DNA of 47,775 nucleotides from OCS116 cluster bacterium AG-430-B22. Lineage in GTDB: Bacteria; Pseudomonadota; Alphaproteobacteria; MED-G09. A program made the translations under genes and the position numbers. Below are positions 8,050 through 32,438 of the stretch, in pieces (within the stretch, counting starts at the first letter, position 1; every line of letters starts with the position of its first letter). Location: contig QCOD01000002.1 of NCBI GenBank assembly GCA_003209955.1, forward strand, positions 64,603 through 112,377. Direction: 5' to 3'. The notes beneath the pieces are model-generated. The model was given only the letters and a program-made list of their open reading frames with translations, did not search any database and was not told the origin of the DNA.

Positions 8050-8370
8050 CTAATGTTGTGATGGTGGCATTTTAACCTTTAAACCATCAAATTCTTCAGT
8101 TATAGGTATTTGGCAACCTAATCTTGAACTATCTTCTTTATATTCATGAAAATCTAACATGCTTTCTTCCTCATCACTCATGGAAGACATTTTATCTTTC
8201 CATTCATCGTCAATAAAAACCATACATGTTGCGCAAGCACAGCCTCCTCCACAATCAGCATCAATACCTGGTATTGAATTAGATACTGCTCCCTCCATGA
8301 TTGAAGTACCAACATCGACATCAACTGGATGCTCAGTACCATCATGTTCTATATAAATAATTTTAACCAT
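8050..8370 (-). CDS. [2Fe-2S] ferredoxin, adrenodoxin type
   Basis: Small electron carrier with one [2Fe-2S] cluster. Ligands follow the adrenodoxin/FdVI spacing: C40-x5-C46-x2-C49 in DCGGGCACATC, with the fourth at C86 (RLGCQIP). C44 is an extra cysteine inside the loop. The frame extends to an ATG at 8394, but the ATG at 8370 has a GGGGAT ribosome site and gives the usual start MVKIIYIEHDG (106 residues). The next reverse-strand gene upstream is a matching FAD reductase, 56 bases away, so the two probably form an NAD(P)H-reductase-ferredoxin pair. No P450 or Rieske oxygenase is in the window. Iron-sulfur assembly or quinone or heme hydroxylation are possible roles. Confidence 0.92.
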   Translation of the reverse strand: MVKIIYIEHDGTEHPVDVDVGTSIMEGAVSNSIPGIDADCGGGCACATCMVFIDDEWKDKMSSMSDEEESMLDFHEYKEDSSRLGCQIPITEEFDGLKVKMPPSQH

Positions 8371-8426
8371 AATTATCCCCGTAAGTATTATCATTTAATA
8401 AAGATATTATTAAAAAAAATCTACAA

Positions 8427-9644
8427 TTAGTTTGCGACTTCCTTAATTGGAATAGTTTCATCAGAAAGTCGATCTTTATCTATTAAAATTTTTTCAGAAA
8501 TAAGTTTTCTAGACATCATATGCTCTGCCGGTCGATTTACGCAATCTGAAGCAGTAATTCTATTCTCTTTTGTATAAAAAACAGCAAAAGATTGGTTTTT
8601 TGTATCTCCTCGAACAACGATATCATCATAATTATCCAATAATCCTGCAATTTGAAGCTTTGTTTCATATTGATCAGACCAAAACCAAGGTATCTGATTA
8701 TAAGAAATATTTTCGCCCATAATTGAGGCAGCAACTGTTTTTCCTTGCTCAATAGCATTATGAACAGACTCCAGTCTTATATTTTTATTATAAAAAATAT
8801 TTGGATGCATAGTACAGTCACCTGCAGAAAATATATAGTCATTTGAGGTTCTACAAAATTCATCAACTATAATTCCATTTTTAGCATCTATGCCAGACTC
8901 AAGAGCAAGAGTATCGCATGGTAAAACACCTATGCCTACAATTACAAAATCAGATACTATTACTCCATTTGAAGTAATAACCTCAACCCCTTTATTATTT
9001 TTTTCTAGTCCCTCAACCGATGTATTAGTTAATACTTCAACACCAGCTTGCTTATGAATTTTAGTATAAAAACTTGATATAGTCTCACTTGTCACACGTT
9101 CAAGAATTCTTGAAGCCATTTCTACAATTGTAACTTGTAAACCCAATTTATTAATAATTGCCGCTACCTCAAGACCAATATAGCCTCCCCCAATTATAGT
9201 AACTTTATTGGATTCTTTAATTTTACCTCTAATTTGTAGAACATCTTCGATAGACCTGAGGTAAAATACTTTATCCGATATCTTTTTATCAACATCAATT
9301 TGTCGTGGAATAGTGCCTGTAGCTATAACAAGATTATCATAATTTTCTTTCTTGTTATCTTTTAAAAATATTTCTTTGTTTTCTATATCAATTCTTTGAA
9401 CATAAGAATTTAAATTTATTGCGATTTGATTTTCTGTGTAAAACTTTTCTGGTTTAAAAAACAATCGCTCTTTATCTAATTCCCCCATAAGAAATTTTTT
9501 AGATAATGGAGGTCTCTGATATGGTAAATAATTCTCTGAACAAAAGATTTTTATTTCACCATCATATTTCTTATTTTTCAAACTTGTTGCAGTTTGGCAA
9601 GCTGCTTGACCACCCCCAATAATTAATGTTTTTTCTTTACTCAT
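8427..9644 (-). CDS. NAD(P)H-dependent ferredoxin reductase (FAD)
   Basis: Pyridine-nucleotide-disulfide oxidoreductase of the putidaredoxin/rhodocoxin reductase type. It passes electrons from NAD(P)H through FAD to a ferredoxin. The FAD-binding GGGQAACQTATSL is at the N-terminus with the YQRPPLSK segment, followed by ATGTIPR. The second dinucleotide fold is IIGGGYIGLEVAAI, then the FAD motif FSAGDCT and a C-terminal reductase domain (QIPWFWSDQYETKLQIAG). Length 405 is normal. The ATG at 9644 follows AAGGT at a good distance. The neighbouring ferredoxin is the likely partner. Confidence 0.92.
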   Translation of the reverse strand: MSKEKTLIIGGGQAACQTATSLKNKKYDGEIKIFCSENYLPYQRPPLSKKFLMGELDKERLFFKPEKFYTENQIAINLNSYVQRIDIENKEIFLKDNKKENYDNLVIATGTIPRQIDVDKKISDKVFYLRSIEDVLQIRGKIKESNKVTIIGGGYIGLEVAAIINKLGLQVTIVEMASRILERVTSETISSFYTKIHKQAGVEVLTNTSVEGLEKNNKGVEVITSNGVIVSDFVIVGIGVLPCDTLALESGIDAKNGIIVDEFCRTSNDYIFSAGDCTMHPNIFYNKNIRLESVHNAIEQGKTVAASIMGENISYNQIPWFWSDQYETKLQIAGLLDNYDDIVVRGDTKNQSFAVFYTKENRITASDCVNRPAEHMMSRKLISEKILIDKDRLSDETIPIKEVAN

Positions 9645-29095: not shown

Positions 29096-29968
29096 ATGTT
29101 TACATTTTTAAGAAAAATTATTGAAATCTTTAAAGTTAGAATTAGCTTAACAATAACATTATGTGCTGTTTCTGGGGTTTTTATAATGCCTTACAGTAAT
29201 TCTTTCACTTTTAAACAATTTTTGGTTCTAATATTTTGTACTTTTTTATCCTCGGCAAGCTCAAGTGCTTTTAATCAATTTTATGAAAAAGATTTGGATA
29301 AATTAATGCCTCGAACATCTCAGCGACCATTTGCCACAGGTTTTTTTAAAACAAAAATTTCTTGGTTAATCGGATTCTTTGCACTGCTAGTTTGTTCTCT
29401 ATTATTAGCTGCATATTATTTGAATATAGCAACTGCAATCTATTTGTTATTAGGAGCTCTATTTTATGGCTATATTTATACGGTAGTTTTAAAAAGATCG
29501 AGTATATATAATATAGTTATAGGAGGTCTAGCTGGAAGTTTTGCTGTTCTTGCAGGCTCAGCGGCGGTAAATCCAATGCTATCAGTTTCAGCAATAATTC
29601 TTTCTTTAATTCTTTTCCTTTGGACACCACCACATTTCTGGAGCTTAGCAATAGCTATAGAAGAAGATTATGCTAAAGCAAAAATACCGATGCTTCCAAA
29701 CCTGATAGGGGCAAAAAGCTCTTCTTATGTCATTCTTTCTCAAACTGTTTTATTAGTTTTGATTTCCTTCGTTCCATTATTATTCAATATGGGTATAATT
29801 TATCTAATTTTTGTTTTTGTTGGAGGCCTTTATTTCTTGTGGAGAAGCGTAGTTCTTGTATTAGAAACAACTAAAAAAAATGCTATGTCTAATTTTTTTG
29901 CTTCTTTTATTCAGCTAGGCTTACTTTTATTTGCTTGCATAATTGAAGGACTTCTAAATTATATCTAA
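29096..29968 (+). CDS. ctaB: Protoheme IX farnesyltransferase (heme O synthase)
   Basis: Integral membrane prenyltransferase that adds a farnesyl group to heme B, giving heme O for cytochrome oxidase. The aspartate-rich prenyl site is in SSAFNQFYEKDLDKLMPRT and the second conserved region is WTPPHFWSLAI. About eight or nine hydrophobic helices are visible. Length 290 is usual. It is divergent from the oxidase operon across a 200-base gap; in many relatives ctaB lies inside the operon, after subunit I. No CtaA or CtaG (Cox11) is in the window. Confidence 0.95.
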   Translation: MFTFLRKIIEIFKVRISLTITLCAVSGVFIMPYSNSFTFKQFLVLIFCTFLSSASSSAFNQFYEKDLDKLMPRTSQRPFATGFFKTKISWLIGFFALLVCSLLLAAYYLNIATAIYLLLGALFYGYIYTVVLKRSSIYNIVIGGLAGSFAVLAGSAAVNPMLSVSAIILSLILFLWTPPHFWSLAIAIEEDYAKAKIPMLPNLIGAKSSSYVILSQTVLLVLISFVPLLFNMGIIYLIFVFVGGLYFLWRSVVLVLETTKKNAMSNFFASFIQLGLLLFACIIEGLLNYI

Positions 29969-30026
29969 TTTCAAATACTTGAATCTATTTGTTAATTGTT
30001 CTAATAATTATTAACTAATAAACTAT

Positions 30027-31157
30027 ATGGAGAAAAAATTGAAAAAATCTGATCAAATTACTAAGAATGCAGCTTATGAGGCTGTAGCGCCAGATGACTT
30101 TGCATCAATGATTGAAGTTGATCGATATGAACAAAGATCAAGTGATTTTGATAAGATAATTTCAGATACTCATGCCCACTTTTGGGATCCTCTAGATACA
30201 AAATATATTGATTTTTCTGAAAACTTTGATGTTGAAAATAAATTACTTATGCCTGAAGAATTTCTTCCAGAATTACAGTGCCCATCAGTAATGAAATTGG
30301 ATCAAAAATCCAAAATAAAACTTGCGAATGAGAGTTTTAGGTGGCAGATGTCGGCAATTCTTCATGGGGAACAAGGAGCATTAAATTTATCAGCAAGTCT
30401 CTGCCACATATTAAAAGATCAAGGTGCACAAGAATATGCTGCAAATCAGGCTAGAGAAGAAGCTAGACATGTAACTGGTTTTGCTAAGTACATTAATTCT
30501 AGATGGGGTAAACCACTCCCAGTTGGCCAAACTCTTGGAGATCTGTTGAGTGAATTAGTTAATGCACCAGAAGTTTATAAAAAAATTGTTGGAATGCAAA
30601 TTCTAGTAGAAGGATTAGCTATGGGAGCTTTTGCAACAATTTATCAACACAGTTATGACCCAGTTTTAGTTAAGTTAATGCAGTTAGTTATGACAGATGA
30701 AGCATTTCATCATAAATTTGGAAAAATATGGGCGGATAAAACTATTCCTAAATTAGATGAGAATGAACAAAATATTATTGAAGATTGGGCAGCCAATTGT
30801 TTTCAAATTTTGTTATTTAATTTAGTCAACCCTGAACAGAAGAAAATTATATATGATCAATTTGGTCTTGATTGGAAACAAGTGCTTGATGAACTACACG
30901 AAATCATAACCGATGATGATAGAAGAGAGAGAATGAGGGAATCGACTGATATCTTTAGGGTTCTTGTTAAAACTCTCTTTAAAGCTGGTATTATTACTGA
31001 CCGAACAAAAGATTTTTATTCTGTCTATGTTGATCTTGATGAATTAAAAGAAGAAGGAGATCGAATGGTTGGTGATGATATAGCTGACGAAGGGCTTCAG
31101 TTCTTAAAAGAAATAAATTTCAGGGATAACACTAGTAGAAATATTGCAGCAGAATAA
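30027..31157 (+). CDS. Ferritin-like diiron protein of unknown function
   Basis: Conserved protein of a four-helix-bundle diiron fold. The ligand pattern is complete: E115 (HGEQGAL), E145 and H148 (REEARHV), E195 (LVEGLAMGA), E225 and H228 (TDEAFHHKFG). This is the E, ExxH, E, ExxH arrangement of oxygenase-type ferritin-like proteins (R2, AurF and hydroxylase relatives). Length 376 exceeds a plain ferritin, with an N-terminal extension of about 100 residues and a C-terminal helix region. The ATG at 30027 lacks a ribosome site; a TTG at 30039 follows GGAG by six bases and may be the real start (MKKSDQITKNAA). It lies between ctaB and the ankyrin gene; substrate unknown. I infer an oxygen-using enzyme. 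Confidence 0.8.
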   Translation: MEKKLKKSDQITKNAAYEAVAPDDFASMIEVDRYEQRSSDFDKIISDTHAHFWDPLDTKYIDFSENFDVENKLLMPEEFLPELQCPSVMKLDQKSKIKLANESFRWQMSAILHGEQGALNLSASLCHILKDQGAQEYAANQAREEARHVTGFAKYINSRWGKPLPVGQTLGDLLSELVNAPEVYKKIVGMQILVEGLAMGAFATIYQHSYDPVLVKLMQLVMTDEAFHHKFGKIWADKTIPKLDENEQNIIEDWAANCFQILLFNLVNPEQKKIIYDQFGLDWKQVLDELHEIITDDDRRERMRESTDIFRVLVKTLFKAGIITDRTKDFYSVYVDLDELKEEGDRMVGDDIADEGLQFLKEINFRDNTSRNIAAE

Positions 31158-31170
31158 ATAATTTATATAT

Positions 31171-31749
31171 CTAATTATTATATGCTCCATTTTCAATTAA
31201 CAAAACTTCAATCCTTTTAAATCGTTTAGATTTTGCCCAATCAAGTGCTGTTCTGCCGGTTAAATCTGTATCATCAGGATATGCACCCCCTTGTAATAAA
31301 GCTTTAACAGAATTAAATTTACCTTCTCTTGAAGCAATTATTAGTGGAGTTTGACGGTTTGGTCCTAATTTATTCGGATCAGCTCCATAGCTTATTAATG
31401 TTTTTATTAAATTTGGATCATCTTTAAACACAGCAAGTGATAAGGCTGTTCGGTTATCTTGGTCTTTCATATTAACCCTTGCACCTTGCTCTAATAAAAA
31501 TAATGCCATATCTATTCTTGACCGTTCAATAGCAAGCAATAATGCCGGTACTTCATCAAAATCTCTCTCATTAATAGAAGCTCCAGAATTTAATGCAGAA
31601 ACTAAATCTTGGAGCCTGCCCGTTTTAACAGCTGAAACAAGAGCCCCTTCTTTAAATGGACTATCATTAAAACCTCCATATTGTGCATTGATAGAGATAT
31701 AAGGAATAAAAAATAATATCAATAAATTTACTATTAAAAATTTTTTCAT
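31171..31749 (-). CDS. Exported ankyrin-repeat protein
   Basis: After a signal peptide (MKKFLIVNLLILFFIPYISINA, cleavage probably near residue 22) come four or five ankyrin repeats of about 33 residues, for instance EVPALLLAIERSRIDMALFLL, RTALSLAVFKDDPNLIKTLI and TGRTALDWAKSKRFKRIEVLL. The frame runs on to an ATG at 31803, but the ATG at 31749 follows AAGGT and begins directly with the signal peptide, so I use it (192 residues). It is a periplasmic protein-binding module of unknown partner. It lies divergent to SCO1 and 13 bases from the convergent diiron gene. Confidence 0.87.
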   Translation of the reverse strand: MKKFLIVNLLILFFIPYISINAQYGGFNDSPFKEGALVSAVKTGRLQDLVSALNSGASINERDFDEVPALLLAIERSRIDMALFLLEQGARVNMKDQDNRTALSLAVFKDDPNLIKTLISYGADPNKLGPNRQTPLIIASREGKFNSVKALLQGGAYPDDTDLTGRTALDWAKSKRFKRIEVLLIENGAYNN

Positions 31750-31811
31750 TTTTTTTACCTTATTATTTAAATTAATGGATTTTAATACATTCTTATTATA
31801 CATACATCTAC

Positions 31812-32438
31812 ATGTTTCAAAAATATTTTTTAATTTTAATGGCTACCGCTCTAATATCTTTTGTATTGTACCTTTTTGGAACTTTTTTCATTTCTTCAAA
31901 TAGAAGTTATAACCAGGATAAAGTTGTTACAGAAGTTGAAAACCAAGAAGGAATACCTGGTGGTCACTTTAAATTGAGAACTCATGATGGAAAAATTTTT
32001 GATACATTGGAAAACCAAAACCCCATGCTAATATATTTTGGTTTTACATATTGCCCTGATGTTTGCCCTATTACATTACTGACCATGGCAAATGTTCTTG
32101 ATAAATTAGAGCATGAAGAAATTACTTCTCTTTTTATTACAGTGGACCCAGAACGTGACAATGAAGAAATTTTATCAAATTATGTTACTGCTTTTCATGA
32201 TGAAATAATTGGTTTAACAGGCACAATTTCAGAGATAAATAAAGTTACCTCAGATTGGAAAGTATATTTTAAAAAAGAAAATAACATTGATATGCCCGAC
32301 AATTACTCTGTTAATCACTTAGATATTATATTTATTGCTAATAAGAATGCCGAATTTGTTGATTTTATAAAACCTAATACATCTTCTGAAGATGTAATTA
32401 AAAAATTAGTAAAAGTTATCCCGCAAATAAAAGGCTAG
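31812..32438 (+). CDS. SCO1/SenC copper chaperone
   Basis: Membrane-anchored thioredoxin-fold protein that delivers copper to the CuA site of oxidase subunit II. It has an N-terminal membrane helix (residues about 5-27) and the copper ligands C81 and C85 in FGFTYCPDVCP together with H169 in VNHLDIIF, all present. VDPERD is a further family motif. Length 208 is usual. It is 3 kb from the oxidase operon and divergent from the ankyrin gene, and ends 4 bases from the convergent gyrB stop. The oxidase with a CuA centre nearby supports the assignment. Confidence 0.95.
   Translation: MFQKYFLILMATALISFVLYLFGTFFISSNRSYNQDKVVTEVENQEGIPGGHFKLRTHDGKIFDTLENQNPMLIYFGFTYCPDVCPITLLTMANVLDKLEHEEITSLFITVDPERDNEEILSNYVTAFHDEIIGLTGTISEINKVTSDWKVYFKKENNIDMPDNYSVNHLDIIFIANKNAEFVDFIKPNTSSEDVIKKLVKVIPQIKG

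Follow-up and report, generated by a model that had tools for sequence, protein, structure and literature searches.

The gene considered here lies in the window, that is, the whole analysed stretch of 47,775 nucleotides from OCS116 cluster bacterium AG-430-B22, whose genome is a 1.24 Mb draft of 79.6% completeness. It encodes a ferritin-like protein of the AurF-like kind and stands between ctaB, for a heme O synthase-type prenyltransferase, and genes for an ankyrin-repeat protein and SCO1/SenC, while a ferredoxin and a ferredoxin reductase are encoded elsewhere in the window (Table 1). No terminator-like site was found between ctaB and the diiron gene, a promoter scan gave results at chance level, and no gene of redox or acyl function adjoins the diiron gene in the window.

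Table 1. Genes and codons of the window discussed in the text, with residue numbers of the diiron protein
Feature	Position	Strand	Remarks
[2Fe-2S] ferredoxin (Fer2)	8050..8394	-	possible, not dedicated, electron donor
FAD-dependent ferredoxin reductase	8427..9644	-	present with or without the diiron gene across the order
Heme O synthase-type UbiA prenyltransferase (ctaB)	29096..29968	+	same strand as the diiron gene, 58 bp upstream
Diiron ferritin-like protein, AurF-like, PF11583-related, H-G-E-Q motif subfamily	30027..31157	+	ATG start, 376 aa
Codons H113-G114-E115	30363..30371	+	E115, putative first metal ligand
E145-x-x-H148	30459..30470	+	putative metal ligands, EEARH motif
E195	30609..30611	+	putative metal ligand
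V221	30687..30689	+	column of the seventh ligand (His) of AurF-type N-oxygenases, by alignment
E225-x-x-H228	30699..30710	+	putative metal ligands, DEAFH motif, D224 directly before
Ankyrin-repeat protein	31171..31803	-	conserved neighbour
SCO1/SenC	31812..32438	+	conserved neighbour; within the RegB/RegA-SCO1 locus in Parvibaculaceae

The six putative metal ligands are E115 within an HGEQ motif, E145 and H148 within EEARH, E195, and E225 and H228 within DEAFH. All of them are invariant in the 143 homologue stretches that were aligned, of which 119 are close and 24 distant, and H113, A118, R147 and D224 are likewise invariant. Codon comparison with three relatives from the PS1 order gave dN/dS values of 0.010, 0.015 and 0.026, which mark strong purifying selection on the gene; in a fourth the synonymous sites were saturated. 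Given this invariance and the low dN/dS, the presence of the six ligands reflects more than chance. The E/ExxH/E/ExxH pattern on a four-helix core that defines the ferritin-like dimetal superfamily (FDO/R2-like) is found in the ligands together with an AlphaFold2 model (pLDDT 87.0, pTM 0.88), and the product of the gene thus reads as a real ferritin-like dimetal protein of the PS1 clade of Alphaproteobacteria. The ligand set, the length and the setting between the heme O synthase and the ankyrin and SCO1 genes had been described in a first-pass annotation made from the letters alone, and all three hold. A storage ferritin, which that annotation had set aside on account of size, is rejected, since a chain of 376 residues contrasts with the type of about 20 kDa and PF00210 is not listed at E ≤1.

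The nearest named relatives are OCS116/PS1-clade Alphaproteobacteria with 97-99% identity across the protein. One copy was found in the organism's own draft genome, and the gene occurs in 8 of 18 genomes of the order: in all seven of its own genus, in the single genome of a second genus, where there are two copies, and in none of the ten of a third, sister genus. Matches were obtained in 48 of 288 alphaproteobacterial genomes sampled (one to five per genome, weak matches counted) and in 12 of 299 genomes of a phylum sample, ten of these twelve, the organism's own included, belonging to the same class. In the class and phylum searches the homologues fall into a close group of at least 53% identity and a distant one of about 24-38%, the two frequently sharing a genome. 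The family alignment comprises 51 members, after exclusion of two copies (L021 and L023) whose matched stretch starts upstream of the start codon with an in-frame stop, and 22 of the 143 stretches, of at most 300 residues, were left out of the tree. No publication on the family was found by name or by context in the open PubMed Central literature, and no characterised close homologue was found; the protein is an uncharacterised kind within a known superfamily, and its substrate is left unassigned by homology, as the annotation had it.

Comparison with sequence families places the protein close to, but just outside, the AurF family. Pfam AurF (PF11583) is the best Pfam family, with 29.5 bits and an E-value of 5.3e-7, 0.1 bit short of the gathering cut-off of 29.6, followed by aldehyde decarbonylase (22.0 bits, cut-off 28) and weaker matches. 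Every one of the 51 sequences in the family alignment matches AurF at E ≤0.01, and among ten relatives scanned against its cut-off all eight distant ones, with scores of up to 72 bits, and one of two close ones pass. The NCBIfam models gave only scores far under their cut-offs. The phenylacetyl-CoA epoxidase-type family PF05138 reached 13.6 bits against a gathering cut-off of 28.5, and the soluble acyl-ACP desaturase family PF03405 (cut-off 22.7) is absent from the six Pfam families listed at E ≤1. When a single sequence was searched against the PDB, the aldehyde-deformylating enzymes designated ADO came first (5k52, E 4.1e-5), as they did with a profile of the close family (E 5.6e-4), while a profile of close and distant members gave R2lox II as the best match (7qbk, E 1.1e-9), ADO at E 4e-7 (4rc6) and AurF merely at E 0.34. 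A designed helix bundle, 9u78, was matched by the same profile at E 3.8e-7, so E-values around 1e-7 may reflect the ExxH helices alone.

Structure comparison of the model likewise points to several classes at once. The matches include ribonucleotide reductase R2 (2rcc_C, Z 20.8, 258 residues, 3.1 A), AurF (2jcd_B, Z 20.5, 283 residues, 3.4 A, the longest alignment among the matches listed), R2lox (6f6l_B, Z 20.4, 234 residues, 2.7 A) and CmlI (5hyh, Z 19.8, 266 residues, 3.1 A); for the predicted structure these are ties, with Z within 1. Because a radical generator (R2), oxygenases (AurF/CmlI) and an oxidase (R2lox) tie, fold and ligands alone leave the chemistry unfixed. The best 50 structural matches listed contain neither ADO nor stearoyl-ACP desaturase, an absence that excludes nothing, and Foldseek gave weak E-values, the best being 8.8e-4. 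Of the diiron oxygenase proposed in the first-pass annotation, a ferritin-like dimetal protein of oxygenase or oxidase type is supported, while an oxygenase as such is not singled out by the structure prediction against AurF, R2 and related hydroxylases that had been suggested as a check.

The surroundings of the gene were compared across 78 loci of named genomes; the locus-feature counts, here and below, are raw counts that allow neither for a background rate nor for loci ending at a contig edge. At least one of the genes for an RND exporter, MmcB, RegA, RegB, the ankyrin protein or SCO1 lies beside the diiron gene in 63 of these loci (MmcB in 53, RegA in 46, RegB in 41), and a divergent HAE3/RND exporter gene lies immediately upstream of it in 42. 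This exporter is an HAE3-type MMPL/RND protein that scores under the HAE3 subfamily cut-off, while the two-component pair at the RND locus passes the ActR/PrrA/RegA and ActS/PrrB/RegB cut-offs. As the RegBA/RND loci share one ancestry, they represent few events. The tree, built by a quick method, joins the window gene to the RND-locus copies of Parvibaculaceae (SH-aLRT 91), and the window order ctaB-diiron-Ank-SCO1-gyrB retains Ank, SCO1 and gyrB of that locus; by these sequence comparisons, the window gene is judged the orthologue of the Parvibaculaceae gene beside the HAE3/RND exporter and RegB/RegA-SCO1. A RegA homologue is encoded elsewhere on the window's contig, and a search without positive control found no relative of the RND exporter in the organism's own genome, at its 79.6% completeness. 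A separate subclade of nine copies (L043, L044, L046, L047, L054, L056, L067, L068 and L079) adjoins cobalamin-uptake-type BtuCDF genes. In the four sister-genus loci examined the site is empty, with ctaB directly beside ank and no diiron gene (L201-L204 compared with window positions 29096-32438).

Electron supply was the subject of a further proposal of the annotation, which noted the ferredoxin-reductase pair at 8-9.6 kb, found it without a terminal oxygenase and suggested that it could serve the diiron protein. The pair is indeed encoded there, and it has no terminal oxygenase inside the window, but six P450 genes are present genome-wide (seven matches, two of them in one frame). In L156 a close relative is followed directly by a Fer2 ferredoxin gene, then by two P450 genes and another copy of the diiron gene; the window ferredoxin shares 61% identity with that ferredoxin and 47% with one beside a distant relative in L138. 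Among 20 distant-group loci, a ferredoxin is encoded within one gene of the relative in two (L138 and L151) and a PaaE-like reductase in five (L139, L142, L143, L146 and L149); since seven of the 20 have one or the other, the context favours a reductant-dependent oxidase or oxygenase. The reductase of the pair, however, occurs in 17 of 18 genomes of the order (one merely a weak match), including all ten without the diiron gene, and P450s occur in all 18; a dedicated pair is rejected on these grounds, and the pair is most simply a P450 donor, perhaps shared with the diiron protein.

P450 genes are themselves a feature of these genomes, the 18 of the PS1 order (0.9-1.4 Mb) having 3-13 PF00067 matches each, many for streamlined genomes. 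A P450 gene also lies between tandem diiron copies in 12 of the 78 loci, of the Parvibaculum type (L010, L011, L012, L015, L022, L025, L027, L030, L039, L040, L042 and L048). In a Parvibaculum strain alkane oxidation has been assigned to a P450-like enzyme in the available part of the report (PMC3695450), and on that account the Parvibaculum diiron copies are not implicated in it.

The neighbours of further relatives include genes of acyl metabolism. An acyl-CoA dehydrogenase- or AMP-ligase-like gene, some of these matches being about 25% identical, is present in eight of 20 fetched loci of close paralogues (L156, L160, L162, L165, L169, L170, L172 and L174). On a Tistrella plasmid a family member has as neighbours a Rieske oxygenase, a PaaA/PaaC-type protein, a radical SAM protein and a MaoC protein; the PaaA-like ferritin-like protein just upstream of it (L130:8074-8826) is possibly a second diiron subunit or belongs to another diiron pathway. 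A relative on a Streptomyces plasmid is surrounded by genes for an acyl-CoA dehydrogenase and for AMP-binding and carrier proteins; this plasmid stretch (L129:1-18750), which also contains DAHP synthase, lyase and anthranilate synthase genes, has the appearance of a biosynthetic gene cluster. A Rhodococcus relative adjoins the ferredoxin FdxA and a molybdopterin oxidoreductase.

A further relative is a 327-residue protein encoded on a Burkholderia plasmid (L127, 8920-9903). Its gene follows a dehydrogenase-like ORF (assigned by eye), a carrier protein gene and two ORFs, and is followed by genes for a KAS III-like protein, a PLP decarboxylase and an adenylation-type ORF (also by eye). As this order matches afcJ-K-L-M-N-O-P-Q, the protein is taken as AfcN by gene order alone. 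In Burkholderia the acyl-peptide AFC-BC11 is lost when afcN is deleted, and AfcN is described as highly homologous to acyl-ACP desaturases, according to the portion of that study available (PMC12186527). For the related bolagladins, the accessible text proposes that BolL desaturates a fatty acyl thioester (PMC7756342). In pairwise comparison the AfcN-like protein is 27% identical to the window protein over 291 residues (E 4e-31), with the six ligands identical, and it scores 15.7 bits against PF03405 (cut-off 22.7); it differs in belonging to an acyl-peptide cluster of its own, with its carrier protein, and in reading DEARH where the window protein has EEARH.

Taken at about even confidence, the protein is an electron-dependent diiron oxidase or oxygenase that activates O2 with electrons from ferredoxin and oxidises a fatty-acyl-like molecule. 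This reading starts from the invariant ligand set, the fold of the model, the purifying selection on the gene, its orthology with the Parvibaculaceae copy and the missing histidine of N-oxygenases. The protein would be a soluble dimetal enzyme in an AurF/R2-like branch of the ferritin-like superfamily, probably with diiron rather than Mn/Fe. Two Fe(II) ions held by the six ligands would bind O2, a [2Fe-2S] ferredoxin would supply the electrons, and a C-H bond of a hydrophobic, fatty-acyl-type substrate would be oxidised, by either desaturation or hydroxylation. A lipid is favoured because the combined profile finds both R2lox, which binds a fatty acid in the available part of its description (PMC6399176), and ADO, which acts on fatty aldehydes in the excerpt available, and because of the acyl-gene neighbours and the AfcN-like relative. 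The exporter divergently adjoining the gene and the P450 between tandem copies also favour the overall reading; it is weakened by the tie with R2, which is no oxygenase, by the designed helix bundle among the profile matches, by the common ancestry of the RegBA/RND loci, and by a window gene without redox or acyl neighbour in a genome where no RND relative was found. The AfcN support is itself weakened, since the identity of the L127 protein rests on gene order and its motif is DEARH. BioE may be likened to the window protein by description, being a diiron oxygenase that converts long-chain acyl-ACP/CoA into pimeloyl thioester, with the same E/ExxH/E/ExxH set, an acyl-thioester substrate and a need for an external reductant, although its ligands are differently spaced (E41, E68, H71, E140, E170 and H173 in C. 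psittaci), as far as the accessible text goes (PMC12915131).

An unlikely alternative is a dimetal oxidase or oxygenase that acts in the manner of AurF/CmlI on a non-acyl small molecule, be it aromatic, terpenoid or nitrogen-bearing. The AurF/CmlI/Dob3 N-oxygenases of PF11583 share the fold and the six-ligand pattern with the window protein, and the best Pfam score, the distant relatives above the cut-off and the length of the 2jcd_B alignment argue for such a function, whereas AurF ranks low in the combined profile search. N-oxygenases of the AurF/Dob3 type are marked by a seventh ligand, a histidine four residues before the Glu of the last ExxH, in the part of the source available (PMC12154687); at this column the window protein has V221, the close group V, A, T or I and the distant group V or I, and histidine is found in none of the 143 homologues. 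N-oxygenase function is rejected by this seventh-ligand criterion, and the first ExxH motif also differs, EEARH standing where these enzymes have DExxH. The halogenase CylC is another comparison, with QExxH and HxxDExxH motifs in the available portion of its report (PMC12101540); as the window protein reads EEARH and VMTDEAFH, it is without this pattern.

Quite unlikely is an R2lox- or R2-like function, in which a single activation of O2 yields a radical or a cross-link without substrate turnover. Both families tie with AurF on Z, and R2lox, a fatty-acid-binding family of the same fold, provides the top PDB profile match. The protein nevertheless scores far under the curated cut-offs, with 13.9 bits against the gathering cut-off of 33.6 for R2 (PF00268) and 18.0 against 194 for the R2lox equivalog (NF006200), the genome carries a separate R2 at 259.1 bits, and the gene is missing from all ten sister-genus genomes. 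Phe occupies the position four residues after H148, the place of the radical tyrosine in E. coli R2, in 116 of the 119 close homologues. An R2 of ribonucleotide reductase is rejected from the low score, the separate R2 and the dispensability of the gene.

Release of a hydrocarbon from a fatty aldehyde, as by ADO, is very improbable. The local active-site sequence is similar, a GEQ, EARH, DE..H..FG..W pattern being common to both in alignment with the cyanobacterial enzyme, and 5k52 is the best single-sequence match, but the ADO equivalog TIGR04059 gives 23.9 bits against a cut-off of 222.65, the ADO chains listed have 212-265 residues, with the window protein extending past the matched stretch at both ends, and no acyl-ACP reductase was incidentally noticed adjoining the gene. 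An assembly factor for heme A or cytochrome oxidase, suggested by the placement between ctaB and SCO1, the closeness to ctaB on one strand without a terminator-like site, and a Parvibaculum copy (L045) just upstream of ccoN/ccoO, is rejected as hardly credible, because all four sister-genus loci examined keep cox2, ctaB, ank, SCO1 and gyrB in order without the diiron gene, which is therefore dispensable and unneeded for the cox locus, and the Parvibaculaceae orthologue does not adjoin ctaB. The protein need not be linked to cytochrome oxidase or heme O.

The acyl-oxidising reading can be extended, speculatively and with a low probability, to the whole H-G-E-Q subfamily, which would then be a distinct class of soluble, ferredoxin-dependent diiron acyl (thioester) desaturases or hydroxylases. 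In Parvibaculales and related Alphaproteobacteria the modified lipid would be exported by the adjacent HAE3/RND pump, whose locus also includes the RegB/RegA redox system, and the streamlined PS1 cells of the ocean would have retained the enzyme and lost the exporter next to it.

The branch is an unnamed, strongly conserved set of dimetal oxidases, often with several copies per genome, for which HGEQ, [DE]EARH and DE..H without a seventh histidine provide a usable signature, and the question of its substrate is testable in cultured Parvibaculum. If it does act on lipids, the enzymes of streamlined marine bacteria would come to include a soluble one that oxidises acyl groups.
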